This document shows positions 25,959 through 34,880 of a DNA stretch of 35,511 nt, one piece after another (position 1 is the stretch's first letter; each line of letters starts with the position of its first letter). The position numbers were made by a program, and so were the translations under genes. The stretch lies in assembly GCA_018816345.1 (NCBI GenBank), contig JAHIWG010000059.1, positions 1-35,511 on the forward strand, in the 5' to 3' direction. Under the pieces are notes generated by a model. It worked only from the letters and a program-made list of their open reading frames with translations, was not told the DNA's origin and did not search any database. This DNA comes from Spirochaetota bacterium. Lineage in GTDB: Bacteria > Spirochaetota > Spirochaetia > Treponematales > UBA12059.

Positions 25959-27677
25959 TCAGGCCTCGACGAAGCCCCTGTTCCGCCCGGCCGACTTGGC
26001 CCTGTACATCTGCATGTCGGCGGCGTTCACGAGCTCGGCCGGGCTGGAATGGCCGGACGCCTTCGCGATGCCGTAGCTGATGGTCTTTCCCGCCCTCGCG
26101 GGGCCGGCCGCGAGCGAGGCGGCCTCTACCGATACGCGGATCTTCTCGAGGAGGCTGGCGGCCTCCCGGGCTTCGGTGCCCGGGAGGATTATGCAGAATT
26201 CCTCGCCTCCGTAGCGCGACACGGTATCGGTCTTGCGGACGCTCTCCTGCAGTATCCCGCCTATGCTCTTCAGGGCCTCGTCCCCGGCGGCGTGGCCGAG
26301 GGAGTCGTTCAGGTCCTTGAATCGGTCTATGTCGACGAGGGCCAGGCAGAAGCCGTGACCGTAGCGCGTCCACCGGTCCCATTCCCGTTCCAGGAGCTCC
26401 CAGAAATGCCTGCGATTGATAAGGCCCGTGAGCGAATCCATCCTGGACAGCCGCTCCAGCTCGCCCGTTCGCTCGGCTACCCTCCGCTCGAGGTTGGCGT
26501 TCAGGTCCTTGACCTCCTTGAAGCTGAGGGCGAAGCGCCTGCCGAGCACGAGCGACTGGCTGAAGAGGAAAGCGAACAGGCCGAGGCCGATCGAATAGAA
26601 CGTATAGATGATCTTCAGGTCGTGGAGTATGTCGTTGACCGTCGAGGCGATGAGGATAAGGACGCCCGCGAGCATCAGCCTCGCGCCTGGCGATCGTTCC
26701 CTCAACTCTCGCGCGAGGACCGCCATGACGTAGGCGGCCGCCAGCAGGATTGCGGCCTGGTACGGCAAGAACCACGACTGAACGAAGCGGACGGGGGCGA
26801 CTACCGAGAATACGGCCTGGGCAGTCCCGAGCGCGACGAGGCCGCCCATCGCCGCCGGGTTCCTGTGCCGGGGGAACATTGCGTACAGGTACGCCAGGAA
26901 GGTGATAGGAAGGAGTATCGTCGCGACGTAGGCCGTCCTCAGGCCCGCGGCCCCGTCGAGGGCGGGTACGAGCGTCGCGAGCAGTTGTTGGTCCGATAGC
27001 CCCGTCTTCACCACGGTAACGAGGCAGAAGAGCGCGAAGTAGAGGGTCGAGCGCTCTTCGCGGCGCATGGCGAATAAGGCGAGGTGGTAGAGGGCCATCA
27101 TTACGATCGACCCCGTTATCATGATGTCGACGAATCTCCCGAGGAACGACGAGCGCTCAACGGCGTCGGCCTCGCCGAACCAGACGGGCATCCAGAGGCC
27201 GCCCGTCGCGTGCTCGGTGTTCTCTACGGCTACGGCGAGGCTGACCGTCTCCCCGCTCGGCACGAACCGGTAGGTCCTGGGGGCGTAGGTCGTCTCCGGC
27301 AGGCCCCAGTCGCCGATCGCCCGCCCGTCGACGGAGACGATCCCCGCGGAGCTGATTCCCATGAACCGCAGGGCGTAGAGCCGCCCGGGCGCCAGGCCGG
27401 CGAGCCGGAGCCGATACTCTCCCGAGGAGAGCCCGGGCTGGATGGAATTCCAGACTCGAGGGACGCCCAGGGCGACGGGCGAGGACGAGCCCCCCGGCGT
27501 GAACAGCCAGTCGCCGTCGAGGCGGGCCGCTACCCCGGGAGCCGGGGCGGTCGCCTCGCCGTCGCGTACCCGCAGCCCGTGGCGACCCGGCGAGCAGGCC
27601 GACAGGGCCGCGACGACGCCGAGGACGAGGAAGAGCGGGGCGGCCCGGCGCGCGGGCATCAGCGAGGGTCGTTCCAT
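25959..27677 (-). CDS. 7TM-DISM diguanylate cyclase (GGDEF) with extracytoplasmic sensor
   Basis: It is predicted to make c-di-GMP from two GTP. The 572-residue protein has a signal sequence with a lipobox-like LSAC (C28). An extracytoplasmic jelly-roll-like domain lies at about 50-170 (7TMR-DISMED2-like, possibly binding a carbohydrate), and seven membrane segments at about 182-380. A short coiled coil (385-410) leads to a GGDEF domain (412-572). The active-site loop is YGGEEF (490-494), and the product-inhibition I-site RKTD (481-484) is five residues before it, so the enzyme should be active and feedback-controlled. The start is 6 nt after the SAM hydrolase stop; it is the last gene of the ABC operon. 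It is convergent with sppA. Confidence 0.9.
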   Translation of the reverse strand: MERPSLMPARRAAPLFLVLGVVAALSACSPGRHGLRVRDGEATAPAPGVAARLDGDWLFTPGGSSSPVALGVPRVWNSIQPGLSSGEYRLRLAGLAPGRLYALRFMGISSAGIVSVDGRAIGDWGLPETTYAPRTYRFVPSGETVSLAVAVENTEHATGGLWMPVWFGEADAVERSSFLGRFVDIMITGSIVMMALYHLALFAMRREERSTLYFALFCLVTVVKTGLSDQQLLATLVPALDGAAGLRTAYVATILLPITFLAYLYAMFPRHRNPAAMGGLVALGTAQAVFSVVAPVRFVQSWFLPYQAAILLAAAYVMAVLARELRERSPGARLMLAGVLILIASTVNDILHDLKIIYTFYSIGLGLFAFLFSQSLVLGRRFALSFKEVKDLNANLERRVAERTGELERLSRMDSLTGLINRRHFWELLEREWDRWTRYGHGFCLALVDIDRFKDLNDSLGHAAGDEALKSIGGILQESVRKTDTVSRYGGEEFCIILPGTEAREAASLLEKIRVSVEAASLAAGPARAGKTISYGIAKASGHSSPAELVNAADMQMYRAKSAGRNRGFVEA

Positions 27678-27683
27678 GCGGGC

Positions 27684-28541
27684 CTATTCGTACACTATCC
27701 TGGGCGCCTTGCGGATGGATATCTTCCACGAGAGGCCGGTGCCTATATTGTAGGCGCGGGCGAACGAGCCTTGGTTTATGGCTACGGCTACGTTGAGGAC
27801 GGAATTGATGTACACCAGCGGCTCGCCCATCGAGACGTCGGCGAACGAGCGGGCGTACACCATCGTGTTGCGGTAGACCTCCCGCGTATCGTTCCTGATG
27901 GAGACCTCGACGCGCTTGCCGTAATCGACTCCCAGGCTGATGAAGAGCGAGTGAGGGATGTTCGACCAGAGGCTTCCGAACCTGACGTCGAGCACGTCTA
28001 TCGTGCCCTCGAGGGCGTCGGCCACGTGCTCCGCGTCGACGTGGGGCAGCTCGACGAGGCTCGGCACGTCGACCGGCTCGCCGAGAGAGTCGAAGGATAG
28101 CTGGCCGGAGGCGAGCCTGGCCCCCGTATACGCGTATACGTCCCGGCCGTGGAAGGTATACGAGAGCTCCGAGCCGGAGAGGCGGTGCGCGTCCTCCCTG
28201 AGGAGCCTCGCCTCGTCTATTCCGAGGAGCAGCTTGACGTGAGTCAGCGTGCCGTTATCCGGGGTGACGATGACCTGACCCGCCTTCGTGCGGACCACGA
28301 CGCTGCGCCGCGACGTCCCTACCCCCGGGTCCACCACCGACACGAAGACCGTTCCCTCGGGCCAGTACTGCACCGTCTGCACGAGTCGGTACGACGCCTC
28401 CCAGATGCTGTACTGCGGTATGTCGTGGGTAAGGTCGAAGATGGAAAGCGCCGGGTCAACCTTGAGCGCGACGCCGTACATCGCTGAGACGGCTCCGTCC
28501 GAGGTCCCGAAATCTGTCTGGTACACGAGCGCTCGCGCCAT
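27684..28541 (-). CDS. SAM hydroxide adenosyltransferase (SAM hydrolase)
   Basis: Family members (DUF62) split S-adenosylmethionine with water into adenosine and methionine; a few relatives use halide instead. The 285-residue protein has QTDFGTSDG near the N-terminus, VVDPGVGTSRRSV, TPDNGTLT and FHGRDVYA. The Asp-Arg-His set of the hydrolase group is present as D71, R78 and H131, which favours hydrolase over fluorinase or chlorinase. No signal peptide is seen, so it acts in the cytoplasm. GGAGG precedes the ATG. It sits 16 nt after the ABC ATPase and 6 nt before the GGDEF gene, inside one operon; the pairing with an amino-acid importer hints at methionine or adenosyl compounds. Confidence 0.92.
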   Translation of the reverse strand: MARALVYQTDFGTSDGAVSAMYGVALKVDPALSIFDLTHDIPQYSIWEASYRLVQTVQYWPEGTVFVSVVDPGVGTSRRSVVVRTKAGQVIVTPDNGTLTHVKLLLGIDEARLLREDAHRLSGSELSYTFHGRDVYAYTGARLASGQLSFDSLGEPVDVPSLVELPHVDAEHVADALEGTIDVLDVRFGSLWSNIPHSLFISLGVDYGKRVEVSIRNDTREVYRNTMVYARSFADVSMGEPLVYINSVLNVAVAINQGSFARAYNIGTGLSWKISIRKAPRIVYE

Positions 28542-28557: not shown

Positions 28558-29319
28558 CTATAGGATGTGCCGAATGAAGTCGCGCGTGCGCTCTTCCTTC
28601 GGTTCCGTGAATATCCGGTCGGGCGATCCCTGCTCGACTATCTTGCCCCGGTCCATGAAGACGACCCTGTCGGCGGCCGCCCGCGCGAAGCCCATCTCGT
28701 GGGAGACGACCATCATCGTCATGCCCTCGTCGGCGAGTCCCGTCATCACGTCCAGGACTTCCTTTATCATCTCCGGGTCCAGGGCGGACGTAGGCTCGTC
28801 GAAGAGGAGCGCCTTGGGGCTCATCGCGAGCGCCCTGGCGATGGCCGCGCGCTGCTGCTGGCCTCCGGAGAGCTGGCGCGGAAGGCGATCCAGCTTGTCT
28901 GAGAGGCCGACCCTGTCGAGCAGGGCCGCGGCCTCGTCCCGCGCCCGAGCCGCCGGCGTCTTGCGGACGAGGCGCGGGGCGAGGGAGACGTTCTCGAGGA
29001 TGGATAGGTGGGCGAAGAGGTTGAAGCTCTGGAAAACCATGCCCGCGTCCTCCCGTATCCGTCGCAGGTCGGCGCGGCGGGCCGTCACCGAGTCCTCGCC
29101 TATCCATATCTCGCCCGAGTCCAGACGCTCCAGCCTGTTGACCGCCCTGAGCAGGGTACTCTTCCCGGAGCCCGAGGGGCCGATCACGAGCACCACCTCG
29201 CCCCGATCGACGTCGAGCGTGACGCCGTCGAGGGCTCGGACTACCTCGCCGGGGCGCGCACCCTTGCCCGGCGAGCCGAAAGTCTTGACCGCGTCCCTAA
29301 TGCGTATGAACGCGCTCAT
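28558..29319 (-). CDS. Polar amino-acid ABC transporter ATPase
   Basis: The 253-residue protein is a GlnQ/HisP-type ATPase: Walker [11 protein letters not shown]-loop [16 protein letters not shown] (the PAAT family form), signature LSGGQQQR, Walker [15 protein letters not shown] and H-loop [10 protein letters not shown]. It powers the neighbouring permease. The ATG at 29319 overlaps the permease stop (ATGA); an upstream extension to 29388 would run inside the permease gene and has no family match. The specificity is not decided by this subunit. Confidence 0.94.
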
Positions 29320-30128
29320 CGCCGCGCCTCCCGGCCCAGCCTGCGCTCCAGGGCGCGCACGAGCATGGAGAGGCTCACGGTCAGGCATAGGTAGAAGAAC
29401 GCCACGACGTTATAGGTCTCGAAGAACTTGAACGTGCTGGCCGCGTAGACCTTGCCTATCTGGGTGATGTCCTGGACGCCGAGCACCGAGACGAGGGCGG
29501 AATCCTTGATTATCGCCACGAACTCGTTGGCCAGGGCCGGCAGGACGTTGCGCACGGCCTGCGGGAGCACTATCCTGAAGGTCGCCTGCGAATGCGACAT
29601 GCCCAGCGCGTAGGCCGCCTCGACCTGGCCCCGGTCGACGCTCTCTATGCCCGCGCGGAATATCTCCGCTATGAAGGCGGCGTAGCCGAGCGTCAGGGCG
29701 AGCACGGCGCGAGTCGCGAAGCTGAAGCTCCTCGACTGGAACGGCTCCATGGCGCCGAGCCTGATGAGCGGGGACATGAGGGCGTTGAGCGCCCCCGCCA
29801 GGGCCGGCGCGCCGACGAAGGCTATGTAGTAGAGGATGACGAGCATCGGCAGGCCCCGTACCAGCTCGATGTAGAACGTTGAGGCCTCGCGCAGGGGCCG
29901 CAGGCGCGACGCCCTGGCGAGCCCCAGCGCGAGCCCCAGGAAGAGCGACGCCGCGTACGACACGACCGCGACGGTCATGGTTACCCCGAAGCCCTTGGCC
30001 ACCGCGCCGAAGATGACGCGGTACGAGGCGTCCGCGAGCGCGGTCCCAACGGAGATGACGCCGAGGCCGATCAGCAGCACGAGCCACCAAGGCACGCCGC
30101 CGAGGGCGGCGGCTACCTTATTCTTCAT
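29316..30128 (-). CDS. Polar amino-acid ABC transporter permease
   Basis: The 270-residue membrane protein is a HisM/GlnP-type permease. It has about five membrane helices, the [20 protein letters not shown] segment typical of the family, and the cytoplasmic EAA loop [20 protein letters not shown] that docks on the ATPase. Only one permease gene is present, so it probably works as a homodimer. GAGGGA lies upstream of the ATG, 23 nt after the binding-protein gene. Confidence 0.93.
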
Positions 30129-30151
30129 TCTGCGTCATCCCTCGCCCCCGG

Positions 30152-30991
30152 TCAGGGCTGGTATTCGAAGAACCACTTGGTGTTGAGCCTCTCGAGGGTC
30201 CCGTCGGCCTTCATCGCCGCGATGGCCGCGTTGAAGGGCGCTACGAGGTCGGAGCCTTTCTTGAAGATGAAGCCGAATTCCTCCGTGCCAAGGGGGCCGC
30301 CGACGGTCTTGAGCCTGCCTGGGTTGGCGCCGATGAAGCCCTTGCTGGAGGAGGCGTCCATCAGGACCATGTCTACGTCGCCGGCCAGGAGGGCCTGTAC
30401 GGTCGCGCCGAAGGTCTCGAACAGCTTGATGCGCTTGTTCTGCTCGTCGCCGTCGAGCACGTTGTAGACCGCGACGTAGAAGTTTGTCGTGCCCGCCTGG
30501 GCTCCCACGAGGAGCTTGGGGTCGGCGGCGAAGGCCTTCTCGTCCGAGAAGCGCTTCTCGTCGGCCCTGACCAGCATGAACTGCTGCGACACCATGTACG
30601 GATCGGAGAAGTCTACCTGGCCCTTGCGCTCGTCGTTGATGGTGATGCCGTCCATGCCGACGTCGAACTGGTCGTCGCGGACCGACTGTATCATCAGGTC
30701 CCAGCTGGAAAGCTTCCATTCGACCTTGGCGTTTAGGCGCCTCGCTATCTCGTTGACGGCGTCGTATTCCCAGCCGACGGACTTGCCGGTCTTGGGGTCG
30801 ACGAAGTTGAGCGGCGTGTAGGCGTTCTCCGTCACCGCGACGATGGTCCGGCCCCTGAGGTCGGGTAGGCCCGCGGCGCTCATGGTCGGGGCCGACGGCT
30901 TCGAGGCGGCGGCCTCCTTATCGCCGACGGCGAACGCCTGGCTTACGGCGAAGGCCGCGATCAGCGAGAGCGCGATCGTTAGCTTTTTCAT
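30152..30991 (-). CDS. Periplasmic amino-acid-binding protein of the ABC importer
   Basis: The 279-residue protein has a signal peptide with likely cleavage at AFA/VGD (about 21). The SBP_bac_3 core has NAYTPLNFVDPKTGKSVGWE, D77 and the ligand-carboxylate-binding region MDGITINDERKGQVDFSDPY with R122, a hallmark of amino-acid binding. The true ligand is open; polar amino acids are typical, and methionine or a SAM-related compound is possible given the operon. The ATG at 30991 has AAGGAGGA; the earlier in-frame ATG is unsupported. It is the first gene of a five-gene operon and divergent from the hemerythrin fusion gene. Confidence 0.92.
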   Translation of the reverse strand: MKKLTIALSLIAAFAVSQAFAVGDKEAAASKPSAPTMSAAGLPDLRGRTIVAVTENAYTPLNFVDPKTGKSVGWEYDAVNEIARRLNAKVEWKLSSWDLMIQSVRDDQFDVGMDGITINDERKGQVDFSDPYMVSQQFMLVRADEKRFSDEKAFAADPKLLVGAQAGTTNFYVAVYNVLDGDEQNKRIKLFETFGATVQALLAGDVDMVLMDASSSKGFIGANPGRLKTVGGPLGTEEFGFIFKKGSDLVAPFNAAIAAMKADGTLERLNTKWFFEYQP

Positions 30992-31031
30992 ACCGATTTC
31001 CTCCTTAGTGGTTCTTGGACGCGTATCCCTA

Positions 31032-31060
31032 TTTGTACACCGCATCGTCGGCCGCTACAA
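31032..31060 (-). promoter_or_regulatory. Candidate promoter of the ABC/SAM hydrolase/GGDEF operon
   Basis: On the minus strand TTGTAG (31055-31060), 17 nt, and TACAAA (31032-31037) fit a housekeeping promoter, with four of six consensus bases in each box. It would give a leader of about 35 nt before the ATG at 30991. No clear operator or riboswitch-like fold was recognised. Confidence 0.5.
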
Positions 31061-31144
31061 GGGCGCGCCCGTAGCGGCTTGCGGGCCGGGGGAATCGCCG
31101 CTATGCTTTATACGGATTCAAATAAAGGCAAGCGGGGCGTGACC

Positions 31145-33727
31145 ATGACGAAGATCGAATTGTGCGAGGGCGTCAGCGTCGTCGACATCCCCGGGGCGGG
31201 CCTCTCGGTGCTCTGCGCGTGCCCTGAGAACGTCGTCAAATTCCTGTTCAAGTCCGGCGCCATAGCCCGGGCCAGCCGTGGCGGGGTCAGCTACGAGACC
31301 GGCCCTAACGCCATACTCCTCTCGGAGATACCCGTGCAGAACGGGCGGTTCTCCAATCTCGCGGAATTCCCGGTGCTCCAGATGCTCTATCGCCAGGGGC
31401 TCATAATCCCCGGCCATCCGATGAATACCGGGGCGCGGCCCATGCTCATAGGCCTCCGCGACCAGGTCGAGGCCCAGGCCAGGTATATCTACGCCGGGAA
31501 CTACGGCGTAACCGACCCCGAGGAGCTCGACCCCGACGACCCGGCCGCGGCCGCCGAGATAATACGGATGAAGCGCAAGTTCTCGTTCGGCTCGTTCAAG
31601 TCGACCGAGGAGCTCCTCGACGTCAGGGTCATCGACGCGCCTATCGTCGAGCTGCGCGGTGGGGCCTACCTACGGCGGCTAGGGGTCAACAGGTACGAGT
31701 TCATAGCCGGCGGCCGAGCCGTCGACGTCGACCTGAACCTCGGGCCCCGCGGCCGCTACGAAGTCCCGTACGAGCTGCCCCGTTCCGAGCCCGTCCGCGA
31801 CTTCTTCTCGGTCGTCCATATAGGGGAAGGCGACGGCTGGGATCCCGAGCGGCCGTGCATGGGCAGCCTCGTCGTCCACAAGGGGAAGCGCTACCTCGTC
31901 GACGCGGGCCCGAATATAGAGGAGAGCCTGGACGCGGTCGGGCTCGGCGTCTGCGACGTCGACGGCGTCTTCCATACCCACGTCCACGACGACCACTTCG
32001 TCGGGCTCACGAGCCTCATGCGGTCCGACCGCCGCATAGCCTACTACGCCGTCCCCATGGTCAGGAGGTCGGCGACGGCTAAGCTGCGCGCTCTCTGCGG
32101 CGTCGGCGAGGGCGATTTCGCGAGGCTCTTCGACGTCGTGGACCTGGAGGAGGGGCGCTGGAACGACGTCGACGGCCTCGAGGTCATGCCCATTCTCTCG
32201 CCTCATCCCTTGGAGACGACTATCTTCCGTTTCCGCGCCGCCGGTCCCGACGGCCCCCGCGTCTACGCCCACTACGCCGACCTGAGCTCGTTCTCCGTCA
32301 TAGACTCCATGGTCGTACCTCCGGGGGTGGAAGGCTCGCCCGCGGCCGCGGGCATAAGCGCCGAGGAAGCGGCGCGGGCCAAGGCCGCGTACCTGGAGCC
32401 CGCCGACGTGAAGAAGGTCGACGTAGGCGGGGGAATGATACACGGCGCGGCGTCGGACTTCTCGGGCGACGCCTCGGGCGACCTGCTCCTCAGCCACGGA
32501 GACCGCGCGGACGCGTTCCGATCCGTCGGCTTCGGTCGGGTCGCGTCCTTCGGCGAGCGAAGCGTCCTTGTCCCGTCGATCGGCGACTGGGGCGCGCTCG
32601 CGGCCTTCGAGTCCCTGAGCCGCTATTTCCCCGGAGCCCCCGAGGCGGACCTCGCGGCGCTCGCGTCGAGCCCCCGGCGCGCCTTCCGAGCCGGCGAGCC
32701 CTTCGCGGCCGGGCGCGCCGGCGACGGCTTCGCGTACCTGACGCTAAGCGGGTCTGTGGAGCGGCTAGACGAGAGAGGAGGGCCCGCCGCGCGCTACGAC
32801 ACGGGCGCGCTCCTTGGCGCGTTCCGCCTTTCCAGCGGGGACCAGGGCGAGGAGCGGTTCCGGGCGGTCCGGGATACCGAGGCCGTAGCCGTGCCCGCGA
32901 GGGATTTCCGGCGCTTCGCGCTGAGGAACGGGCTGGATACGGAGCTCGAGCGAGCCGGGGCGGCCGTCGGCGAGCTCGAGGCTATTCCCGCGCTCGCGGG
33001 AATACGATCGCTATCGTGCCTCTACGAGATGGCCCGCGTCTCGAGCGCGCTGGAGCTAGCGGCTGGAGAGGAGCTAGGCGAGCCGGGCTCGGGCCTGTAC
33101 GCCATGCGAGCCGGGAGCGCCTCCGTGCTCTACTGCGACGCGCCGGTAGAGGAGATAGGGCCCGGCGGCGCGTACGGCGAGGAGTCCGTGGTCTACGGAT
33201 CGCGCAAGCTGTTCGGAGCCAGGTGCTCCGTCCCGTCCATCGCGCTATTCATCCCGTCCTCGGCGATGGAGGACAAGCCCGCCGTCCTATGGCGCCTGCG
33301 CGAGGGGCTCGAGCGGAGGCTGGCCCTCGTGAAGGCCTCCTTCGACTTCTCGTGGCGGCCAGAGTACTCGCTCGGCCTACCGGATATCGACGCCCAGCAT
33401 CGCCTCATCTTCGACGAGATGGGCTCGATCGAGGACGTCGCGGGCGGTCCTCCCGAAGAGCTTGAGAAACGGATGTCGGCGCTCGCGGCCTCGCTCGCGG
33501 AGCACTTCGCCTTCGAGGAAGACCTTCAGGGCCGAGCGGGCTTTCCCGGCCTCGGGGAGCATTCCGACGAGCACGAGTCGCTCCTGAGGGAGCTCGACGG
33601 CTTCTCGCTACGCGTACGCTCGGGAGGGAGCGCCCAGGGGCTGGTGGGCTTCATGAAGGATTGCTTCGTCAGGCATACCCTCCTCTCGGATAGGCAGTAC
33701 CTATCGTGGACCGAGCCCGGCGCGTAG
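31145..33727 (+). CDS. Metallo-beta-lactamase fold / cNMP-binding / bacteriohemerythrin fusion protein
   Basis: The 860-residue cytoplasmic protein has an N-terminal region of about 220 residues with no clear family. A metallo-beta-lactamase fold follows (about 220-460) with HxHxDH at 279-284 and further candidate ligands H354, D379 and H451. Two degenerate cyclic-nucleotide-binding-like domains lie at about 505-600 and 630-715. A bacteriohemerythrin domain (735-855) has all seven expected iron ligands: H752, H787, E791, H806, H810, H844 and D849. It probably senses or handles oxygen or NO. The ATG at 31145 is the best start, though the ribosome site is poor; an ATG at 31104 is an alternative. 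It is divergent from the ABC operon, 153 nt apart. Confidence 0.85.
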   Translation: MTKIELCEGVSVVDIPGAGLSVLCACPENVVKFLFKSGAIARASRGGVSYETGPNAILLSEIPVQNGRFSNLAEFPVLQMLYRQGLIIPGHPMNTGARPMLIGLRDQVEAQARYIYAGNYGVTDPEELDPDDPAAAAEIIRMKRKFSFGSFKSTEELLDVRVIDAPIVELRGGAYLRRLGVNRYEFIAGGRAVDVDLNLGPRGRYEVPYELPRSEPVRDFFSVVHIGEGDGWDPERPCMGSLVVHKGKRYLVDAGPNIEESLDAVGLGVCDVDGVFHTHVHDDHFVGLTSLMRSDRRIAYYAVPMVRRSATAKLRALCGVGEGDFARLFDVVDLEEGRWNDVDGLEVMPILSPHPLETTIFRFRAAGPDGPRVYAHYADLSSFSVIDSMVVPPGVEGSPAAAGISAEEAARAKAAYLEPADVKKVDVGGGMIHGAASDFSGDASGDLLLSHGDRADAFRSVGFGRVASFGERSVLVPSIGDWGALAAFESLSRYFPGAPEADLAALASSPRRAFRAGEPFAAGRAGDGFAYLTLSGSVERLDERGGPAARYDTGALLGAFRLSSGDQGEERFRAVRDTEAVAVPARDFRRFALRNGLDTELERAGAAVGELEAIPALAGIRSLSCLYEMARVSSALELAAGEELGEPGSGLYAMRAGSASVLYCDAPVEEIGPGGAYGEESVVYGSRKLFGARCSVPSIALFIPSSAMEDKPAVLWRLREGLERRLALVKASFDFSWRPEYSLGLPDIDAQHRLIFDEMGSIEDVAGGPPEELEKRMSALAASLAEHFAFEEDLQGRAGFPGLGEHSDEHESLLRELDGFSLRVRSGGSAQGLVGFMKDCFVRHTLLSDRQYLSWTEPGA

Positions 33728-33797
33728 CCTGAGGGCCGCCGCGGAGCGCCCGGTCCCGAGGATGACTACTCGGCGGCATCCGGGCTATGTTATGCCC

Positions 33798-34880
33798 ATG
33801 TCCGATACCGTCGATATCCTAGGGCTGACCTTTCCCTCGTTCGCGGCCGCGTCCGGCCTCGGCCGCGGCAAGGCGCCCGGCCTCCGCAAGGCCTACTCGC
33901 GCGCGCTGCGGGAAGGGCTTTGGACGCCGTCGCTTTTCCTATCGCGGGCGGACGCCGAGTCCTTGCTGCCGCGCTTCCGGGCGGGGCTCCTGGAGCCGGT
34001 CCGTTGCGCCGCGGAGGAGGGCGAGCTGGGCGCCACGAGGAAGGCGTCTCTGCGCCTGTCCGACGGGGCGACCGTGGAGTGCGTGCTGATTCCCTCCCCC
34101 GGGGGCAAGTCGACGCTCTGCCTGTCGTCCCAGGTCGGGTGCCGCATGGGCTGCGCCTTCTGCGAGACCGGGCGCGCGGGGCTGGCGAGGAACCTTTCCG
34201 TAGCGGAGATAGTCTCTCAGGCCGTGACAGCCCGCGCCTCGCTAGGCTGGGATTTTAAGAACGTAGTCTTCATGGGCATGGGCGAGCCGCTCGACAACTT
34301 CGGGGGCCTGTCCGGGGCTCTCGCGGTACTGCTCGGACAGGAAGGCCCGGGCCTGGCCCAGGAGCGCGTTACGGTCTGTACCGCGGGCCTGCCCGACGGG
34401 ATCGCGCGCCTGAAGGCGCTCGGCTACCGGAGGCTCGGCCTATCCGTAAGCCTCAACGCTCCCGACGACGAGACCAGGTCCCGCCTCATGCCCATTAACC
34501 GCGCCTTCGGGCTGTCGGCTCTCGCGGGCGCGCTCGCGGAGTATCCGGCCAGGCGGAACTTCGCCCTAGGCGTCAACTATTGCCTGGTACCGGGCGTCAA
34601 CGACGGTCCCGGCGCAGCGGCCGGGGTGGCGGCCTTCGTCGCCCTCGCGGGCCGGGCCCTCGTCAACGTCATACCGTACAACCCGGGCTCGGCGCCTATC
34701 TCGAGGGCTCCCTCGGAGCCGGAGGTCGATCGCTTCGTGGCCGCCCTCCGGGCCCGGGGCCTGGACGCGCGGGTCAGGGCGCCTCGGGGCCGCGGCCTCA
34801 TGGCGGCCTGCGGCCAGCTCGGCGGCGCGAGCCCGGGCGCGCTCGATCAGGCCTCTTCCTCCTTCTCTACTTTGCGCTGA
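33798..34880 (+). CDS. rlmN: Radical SAM rRNA methyltransferase, RlmN/Cfr family
   Basis: RlmN methylates C2 of adenosines in 23S rRNA and some tRNAs. The 360-residue protein has the radical SAM cluster motif CRMGCAFC (C115, C119, C122), FCETGRAGLARNLS, the SAM-binding segment VVFMGMGEPLDN, SVSLNAPDDETRSRLMPIN, and the C-terminal catalytic cysteine C338 in MAACGQL. RlmN is more likely than the resistance enzyme Cfr, since this looks like a housekeeping context, but sequence alone does not settle it. The start is uncertain: ATGs at 33762, 33792 and 33798 all lack a good ribosome site, and 33798 best fits family length. The 3' end overlaps mgsA by 34 nt in convergent orientation. Confidence 0.88.
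   Translation: MSDTVDILGLTFPSFAAASGLGRGKAPGLRKAYSRALREGLWTPSLFLSRADAESLLPRFRAGLLEPVRCAAEEGELGATRKASLRLSDGATVECVLIPSPGGKSTLCLSSQVGCRMGCAFCETGRAGLARNLSVAEIVSQAVTARASLGWDFKNVVFMGMGEPLDNFGGLSGALAVLLGQEGPGLAQERVTVCTAGLPDGIARLKALGYRRLGLSVSLNAPDDETRSRLMPINRAFGLSALAGALAEYPARRNFALGVNYCLVPGVNDGPGAAAGVAAFVALAGRALVNVIPYNPGSAPISRAPSEPEVDRFVAALRARGLDARVRAPRGRGLMAACGQLGGASPGALDQASSSFSTLR

Follow-up and report, generated by a model that had tools for sequence, protein, structure and literature searches.

A spirochaete metallo-β-lactamase protein with two CNB domains and a C-terminal hemerythrin domain, a possible redox-switched phosphodiesterase

The stretch of DNA analysed here, 35,511 nucleotides of the Spirochaetota contig JAHIWG010000059.1 and hereafter called the window, belongs to a 3.8-Mb genome that is 96% complete. 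At positions 31145-33727 on the forward strand, it contains a single intact open reading frame of 860 codons, which encodes a protein of 860 residues. An alternative start codon, TTG, is located upstream at 31079; in the alignment of homologues, these begin at the ATG at 31145. The domains and the putative functional residues are listed below.

31145..33727, forward strand: whole gene, 860 aa, ATG start; the homologues share the start residue
31145..31792, forward strand: N-terminal domain, residues 1-216, probably of a degenerate MBL type, without metal ligands
31793..32578, forward strand: metallo-β-lactamase (MBL) domain, residues 217-478, from Pfam and a VIA-align Z of 16.1 to Apyc1 (7u2r)
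31979..31996, forward strand: HxHxDH motif, H279, H281, D283 and H284, invariant in 80/80 aligned relatives
32204..32206, forward strand: H354, metal ligand, 80/80
32279..32281, forward strand: D379, bridging metal ligand, 80/80
32441..32443, forward strand: H433 in GGGxIHG, likely the catalytic His (presumed role), 77/78
32495..32497, forward strand: H451 in LLSH, likely the last metal ligand (presumed role), 75/75 with a determined residue
32579..32980, forward strand: CNB domain 1 (CNB1), residues 479-612, from Pfam, fold and cassette count; phosphate-binding Glu and Arg lost
32981..33340, forward strand: CNB domain 2 (CNB2), residues 613-732, from hhalign to CNB1 (probability 98%) and fold; Glu kept, Lys at the Arg position
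33341..33709, forward strand: hemerythrin domain, residues 733-855, from Pfam, TIGR02481 and the structure match to DcrH-Hr
33398..33691, forward strand: span of the seven diiron ligands, H752 to D849, from the sequence and the alignment of relatives

The Pfam matches above cut-off were Lactamase_B at residues 237-293 (3e-9), cNMP_binding in two stretches (1e-10) and Hemerythrin at residues 747-854 (8e-9). An earlier note, made from the sequence alone, had placed an MBL fold, two cNMP-like domains and a hemerythrin domain in one protein, and the Pfam and NCBIfam matches above curated cut-offs bear this out. The search for the same domain order that it had proposed returned relatives with the full order, including the hemerythrin domain. 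The domain matches, the ligand positions and their conservation are not the result of chance.

The HxHxDH motif of the MBL domain was found intact, as the earlier note had claimed, and H354, D379, H433 and H451 are also present; the metal site of this domain is complete. The four residues of the motif, H354 and D379 are invariant across 80/80 aligned relatives, while H433 is kept in 77/78 and H451 in 75/75, in a set that reaches down to 20-25% identity. From what is known of RNase Z, we take H354 and D379 to be the third His and the bridging Asp, H433 to be the catalytic His that RNase Z has in its HEAT motif, and H451 to be the last His ligand. All seven iron ligands reported for the hemerythrin domain were recovered at H752, H787, E791, H806, H810, H844 and D849 (five His, one Glu and one Asp), and the idea of two metal centres in one chain thus holds in that both ligand sets are complete. 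Judged by its residues, the MBL ligand set is of the RNase Z/Apyc1/class II phosphodiesterase kind and not of the flavodiiron (reductase) kind.

We compared the MBL domain of the second model with solved structures using VIA-align. The top match was Apyc1 (7u2r, Z 16.1), followed by PqqB (Z 15.0), the flavodiiron protein TM0755 (14.5) and YhfI (13.0), and further down by tRNase Z/RNase Z (12.8-12.9), the AidC lactonase (12.8) and PhnP (12.6); the lead of Apyc1 over PqqB and the flavodiiron proteins amounts to 1-3 Z units. Apyc1 belongs to the class II phosphodiesterases; it is a homodimer with an HxHxDH motif and two Zn2+ and cleaves cyclic mononucleotides (PMC9117128). Both Apyc1 and YhfI (PMC9117128) share the MBL fold and the HxHxDH motif with our protein, but they are single-domain homodimers without CNB or hemerythrin domains and with about 20% identity to its MBL domain. 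Since the score against the Pfam Apyc1 family (PF23023) was 18.5 bits, far under the cut-off of 50, the protein is not an Apyc1, and the NCBIfam model for cyclic nucleotide-degrading phosphodiesterases (NF041851) gave 21.3 bits versus a cut-off of 400. RNase Z-type profiles matched the metal motif. We nevertheless rejected an identity as tRNase Z, since the RNase Z equivalog TIGR02651 gave 33.3 bits versus a cut-off of 292.95, and a separate, true RNase Z scored 336 bits elsewhere in the genome.

The earlier note could name no family for the first 220 residues. This stood insofar as they gave no Pfam match up to an E-value of 10 and no PDB sequence match, but the segment is conserved, belongs to the enzyme core and is probably a degenerate MBL domain. 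The N-terminal and MBL domains were 75-79% identical to those of the closest relatives, as compared to 40-55% for the CNB and hemerythrin domains; in the comparison with one of them (L032), the identities were 76% for the N-terminal domain, 79% for the MBL domain, 47-48% for the CNB domains and 55% for the hemerythrin domain. The slow evolution, in step, of the first two domains and the faster evolution of the others fit a catalytic core with regulatory modules, and we assign the N-terminal domain to the core because its conservation equals that of the MBL domain.

Residues 1-240 were not resolved when the full chain was modelled with AF2. For residues 1-482, run on a six-row alignment, AF2 yielded one resolved model with a mean pLDDT of 67.6, the other four being at 47-50, and in the resolved model the order of strands and helices in the N-terminal domain parallels that of the MBL domain behind it. 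Long-form tRNase Z consists of a degenerate N-terminal MBL domain and an active C-terminal MBL domain. Foldseek aligned the whole 482-residue model, and thus both the N-terminal and the MBL domain, with the human mitochondrial RNase Z ELAC2, which is of this long form (E 5e-6); the rmsd was 19.9, and therefore this is not one rigid match. The RNase Z profile score, far under cut-off, also sets the protein apart from this group. Using hhalign, we obtained a weak match of the N-terminal domain to the MBL domain, in which the strand-helix-strand segment around the conserved motifs CPPE and TEFPL is placed opposite the strand-helix-HxHxDH segment. The register was identical in several profile-comparison runs, but all shuffles were beaten in just one of three comparisons (0/40, 5/40 and 10/40 shuffles scored higher), while the CNB2 profile scored similarly weakly against the N-terminal domain. 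The model and the profile comparisons are suggestive of a second MBL domain that has degenerated, as in long-form tRNase Z, and this is probably what the N-terminal domain is.

Relatives were identified in 42/393 sampled genomes of the phylum (E <= 1e-20) and in 57/395 genomes of the class (E <= 1e-30). We sorted them into three tiers. Tier A has the full domain order with hemerythrin and includes the protein from the window, L003-L007, L009, L016, L032, L033, L057-L059, L076 and L077; the last of these bears a hemerythrin domain without CNB1 (755 aa), and its genome carries L059 as a second copy. Tier B has the same order without hemerythrin (about 730 aa), and tier C is a remote group with 20-25% identity, also without hemerythrin (about 720 aa). 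Without hemerythrin, this architecture is common across the phylum. Some homologues (L083, L023/L106 and L107) are split by a stop or a change of frame, which may reflect assembly errors or decaying genes.

Gene neighbourhoods were not conserved across 25 loci, the neighbours varying by genome, and we therefore discarded an operon-based argument. A gene for an RlmN-like radical SAM protein is located directly downstream (33762-34880, forward strand) and is shared at this position by the window, L032 and L033 alone. On the other side and divergent from the studied gene, the window encodes an ABC importer permease with a family 3 solute-binding protein (29316-31045, reverse strand), and, farther from the gene, a SAM hydroxide adenosyltransferase (27684-28541, reverse strand) and a 7TMR-DISM receptor with a fused GGDEF diguanylate cyclase (25959-27677, reverse strand). 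A phage or plasmid origin was also rejected, since the viral scan was empty and no full-length match to a plasmid or phage was obtained.

In the structure comparison, the fold of the CNB pair matched PKA regulatory subunits with a Z of 16.5. The layout, an MBL domain with two CNB domains behind it, is that of GbpA and GbpB from Dictyostelium, which are phosphodiesterases activated by cyclic nucleotides on two CNB domains (PMC11988041). The likeness to these intracellular proteins is one of layout, and there are two differences: no hemerythrin domain is described for GbpA/GbpB, and their CNB domains bind cGMP/cAMP and activate (PMC11988041), whereas ours have lost the binding Arg. The earlier description of the nucleotide-binding domains as degenerate applies to the lineage of the window, in which the phosphate-binding cassettes have been lost (in the protein from the window, Glu and Arg of CNB1 and Arg of CNB2), while those of the remote sister group are intact. 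In tier C, the CNB1 cassette has Glu in 14/16 and Asp in 2/16 proteins with Arg in 16/16, and the CNB2 cassette has Glu in 16/16 with Arg in 15/16 and Lys in 1/16. No protein of tier A or B retains the Arg of CNB1, and that of CNB2 is not conserved among them. Tier C thus looks cNMP-binding; in the protein from the window, binding looks lost, at least that through the usual contact, so that a GbpA-like activation by cNMP is unlikely here. The intact cassettes in the sister group make the family plan consistent with cNMP gating. The tier C proteins (L024-L031 and relatives), which have the same MBL site, are better candidates for cNMP-activated phosphodiesterases than the protein from the window.

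The hemerythrin domain scored 70.9 bits against TIGR02481 (cut-off 51.75) and 60 bits against the bacteriohemerythrin subfamily NF033749, which is under its cut-off of 84. Its four-helix fold matched DcrH-Hr with a Z of 18.4 and an rmsd of 1.7 Å over 127 residues, and the Methylococcus bacteriohemerythrin with a Z of 17.6. It shares the fold and the seven ligands with both, but these are fused to a chemoreceptor or standalone, whereas the domain studied here is fused to a hydrolase. Among 15 alignable full-length relatives with a hemerythrin domain, eight have the full ligand set and four more differ by the single change H806Q; two ligands are changed in L059. In L068 and L069, about 110 C-terminal residues form a relic of the hemerythrin fold in which hardly any of the iron ligands are left; the MBL site is intact. 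These two proteins offer a natural means of asking whether the hemerythrin domain has a structural role.

The distribution of the hemerythrin domain on the tree requires at least five gains or losses, yet a single clade was not rejected (p-AU 0.22), and we did not retain separate origins of the fusion. Most relatives lack the domain, and L068 and L069 have it without ligands; the core reaction can therefore do without it. An accessory domain that is mostly maintained and sometimes decayed is as expected of a regulatory input.

A complete enzyme core of a type known to cut nucleotides and RNA, two domains resembling nucleotide sensors and an iron-based sensor domain for oxygen or redox state in one chain probably make this an oxygen- or redox-switched enzyme. 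This agrees with the term sensor-effector in the earlier note. The architecture without hemerythrin resembles the Dictyostelium phosphodiesterases. We give an even chance to a reading in which the protein acts in the cytoplasm as a class II (MBL-class) phosphodiesterase and the C-terminal hemerythrin domain, as a redox/O2 sensor, controls its activity, the most likely substrate being a 3',5'-cyclic mononucleotide. Here we infer the substrate, the direction of switching, the fold of the N-terminal domain and the coupling between domains.

In the mechanism that we propose, the MBL domain would hold two metal ions via H279, H281, D283, H284, H354, D379 and H451, and H433 would act as the general acid in the cleavage of a phosphodiester, most likely that of a 3',5'-cyclic mononucleotide. 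The N-terminal domain, as a probable degenerate MBL domain, would stand in for the second subunit of RNase Z/Apyc1-type homodimers, with long-form tRNase Z as the parallel. In the ancestor, the CNB pair may have gated the enzyme by binding cyclic nucleotides, as in GbpA/GbpB; with the phosphate-binding cassettes decayed in the lineage of the window, the CNB domains would now pass on the signal of the hemerythrin domain that follows CNB2. By analogy with Bhr-HD-GYP from Ferrovum and Bhr-DGC from V. cholerae, the activity would change when the diferrous site is oxidised by O2 or perhaps NO. In these proteins, a bacterial hemerythrin domain is fused to a second-messenger enzyme and acts as a redox switch, the diferrous form being active and oxidation lowering or abolishing the activity (PMC9388753). 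They differ from ours in that the hemerythrin domain is N-terminal, the effectors are HD-GYP or GGDEF domains acting on c-di-GMP rather than an MBL domain, and CNB domains are lacking. The complete scheme, a hemerythrin-gated MBL cyclic-mononucleotide phosphodiesterase that couples O2/redox to cAMP/cGMP breakdown, with CNB domains turned into a relay after the fusion and a dead MBL domain as pseudo-dimer partner, is offered tentatively, and as a whole it is somewhat doubtful.

Domains of class III nucleotidyl cyclases were found at 17 places in the genome, several of them in open reading frames of 800-1000 codons, and the second messenger could therefore be made. These cyclases were present in 42/42 genomes that carry the family and equally in 20/20 genomes that do not; the co-occurrence therefore does not discriminate and we discarded it as evidence.

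An MBL hydrolase of the same superfamily could instead act on another substrate, such as RNA or DNA ends, pApA or a comparable nucleotide phosphodiester, a lactone or a phosphonate ester, in which case the hemerythrin and CNB domains would still be regulatory and the protein would not take part in cyclic-mononucleotide signalling. The structural scores of PqqB (15.0), RNase Z (12.8), AidC (12.8) and PhnP (12.6) near that of Apyc1, the RNase Z-type profile matches to the metal motif and the missing binding Arg in the CNB domains of the window's group all speak for this. Cyclic nucleotides are, however, indicated by the two-CNB layout and its intact cassettes in the sister group, and the genome already has its own RNase Z; we consider another substrate rather unlikely. 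It would be less probable still, and in our view improbable, that the hemerythrin domain is not a gate at all and serves in O2 or iron storage or scavenging, or is a passive fusion to an enzyme that works independently. Its absence from most relatives and the ligand-free relic in two of them would fit such a role, but the ligand set is complete in 8/15 alignable full-length bearers and altered only by H806Q in four more, and fusions of hemerythrin to signalling enzymes are redox-regulatory where tested (PMC9388753).

A further possibility is that the MBL domain reduces O2/NO or senses O2 at a diiron site, as do the flavodiiron proteins or the Treponema ODP, which would place two gas-reactive diiron sites in one chain. 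These proteins share the MBL fold, the similarity to TM0755 reaching a Z of 14.5, and ODP is already known as an oxygen-binding diiron protein of spirochaetes (PMC7666581). The defining features of a flavodiiron core, however, are a flavodoxin domain that carries FMN and a Glu among the iron ligands (PMC6033852), and here no flavodoxin was found among the Pfam matches and the position of the Glu ligand is taken by H281. The pattern of HxHxDH, a catalytic-type His (H433) and a final His (H451) is that of a hydrolase or phosphodiesterase, and neither a flavodoxin nor another electron-transfer domain is present. The reductase function that the earlier note had offered as an option was dropped for these reasons, and we regard a gas-reactive diiron MBL site as very improbable.

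As far as open-licence papers show, the MBL-CNB phosphodiesterase-like proteins are a known kind and the hemerythrin cap may be the new part, no description of a hemerythrin-capped MBL-CNB protein having been found in these papers. A 2022 review knew of no bacterial sensor phosphodiesterase with hemerythrin other than Bhr-HD-GYP (PMC9388753). If the protein is a hemerythrin-gated phosphodiesterase, a second, unrelated enzyme class would be under hemerythrin control, and there would be a direct link from oxygen/redox to the turnover of cyclic mononucleotides in spirochaetes, where class III cyclases abound. The family, with its intact and decayed CNB cassettes and its intact and decayed hemerythrin domains, is a natural series in which a swap of regulatory inputs may be tested.
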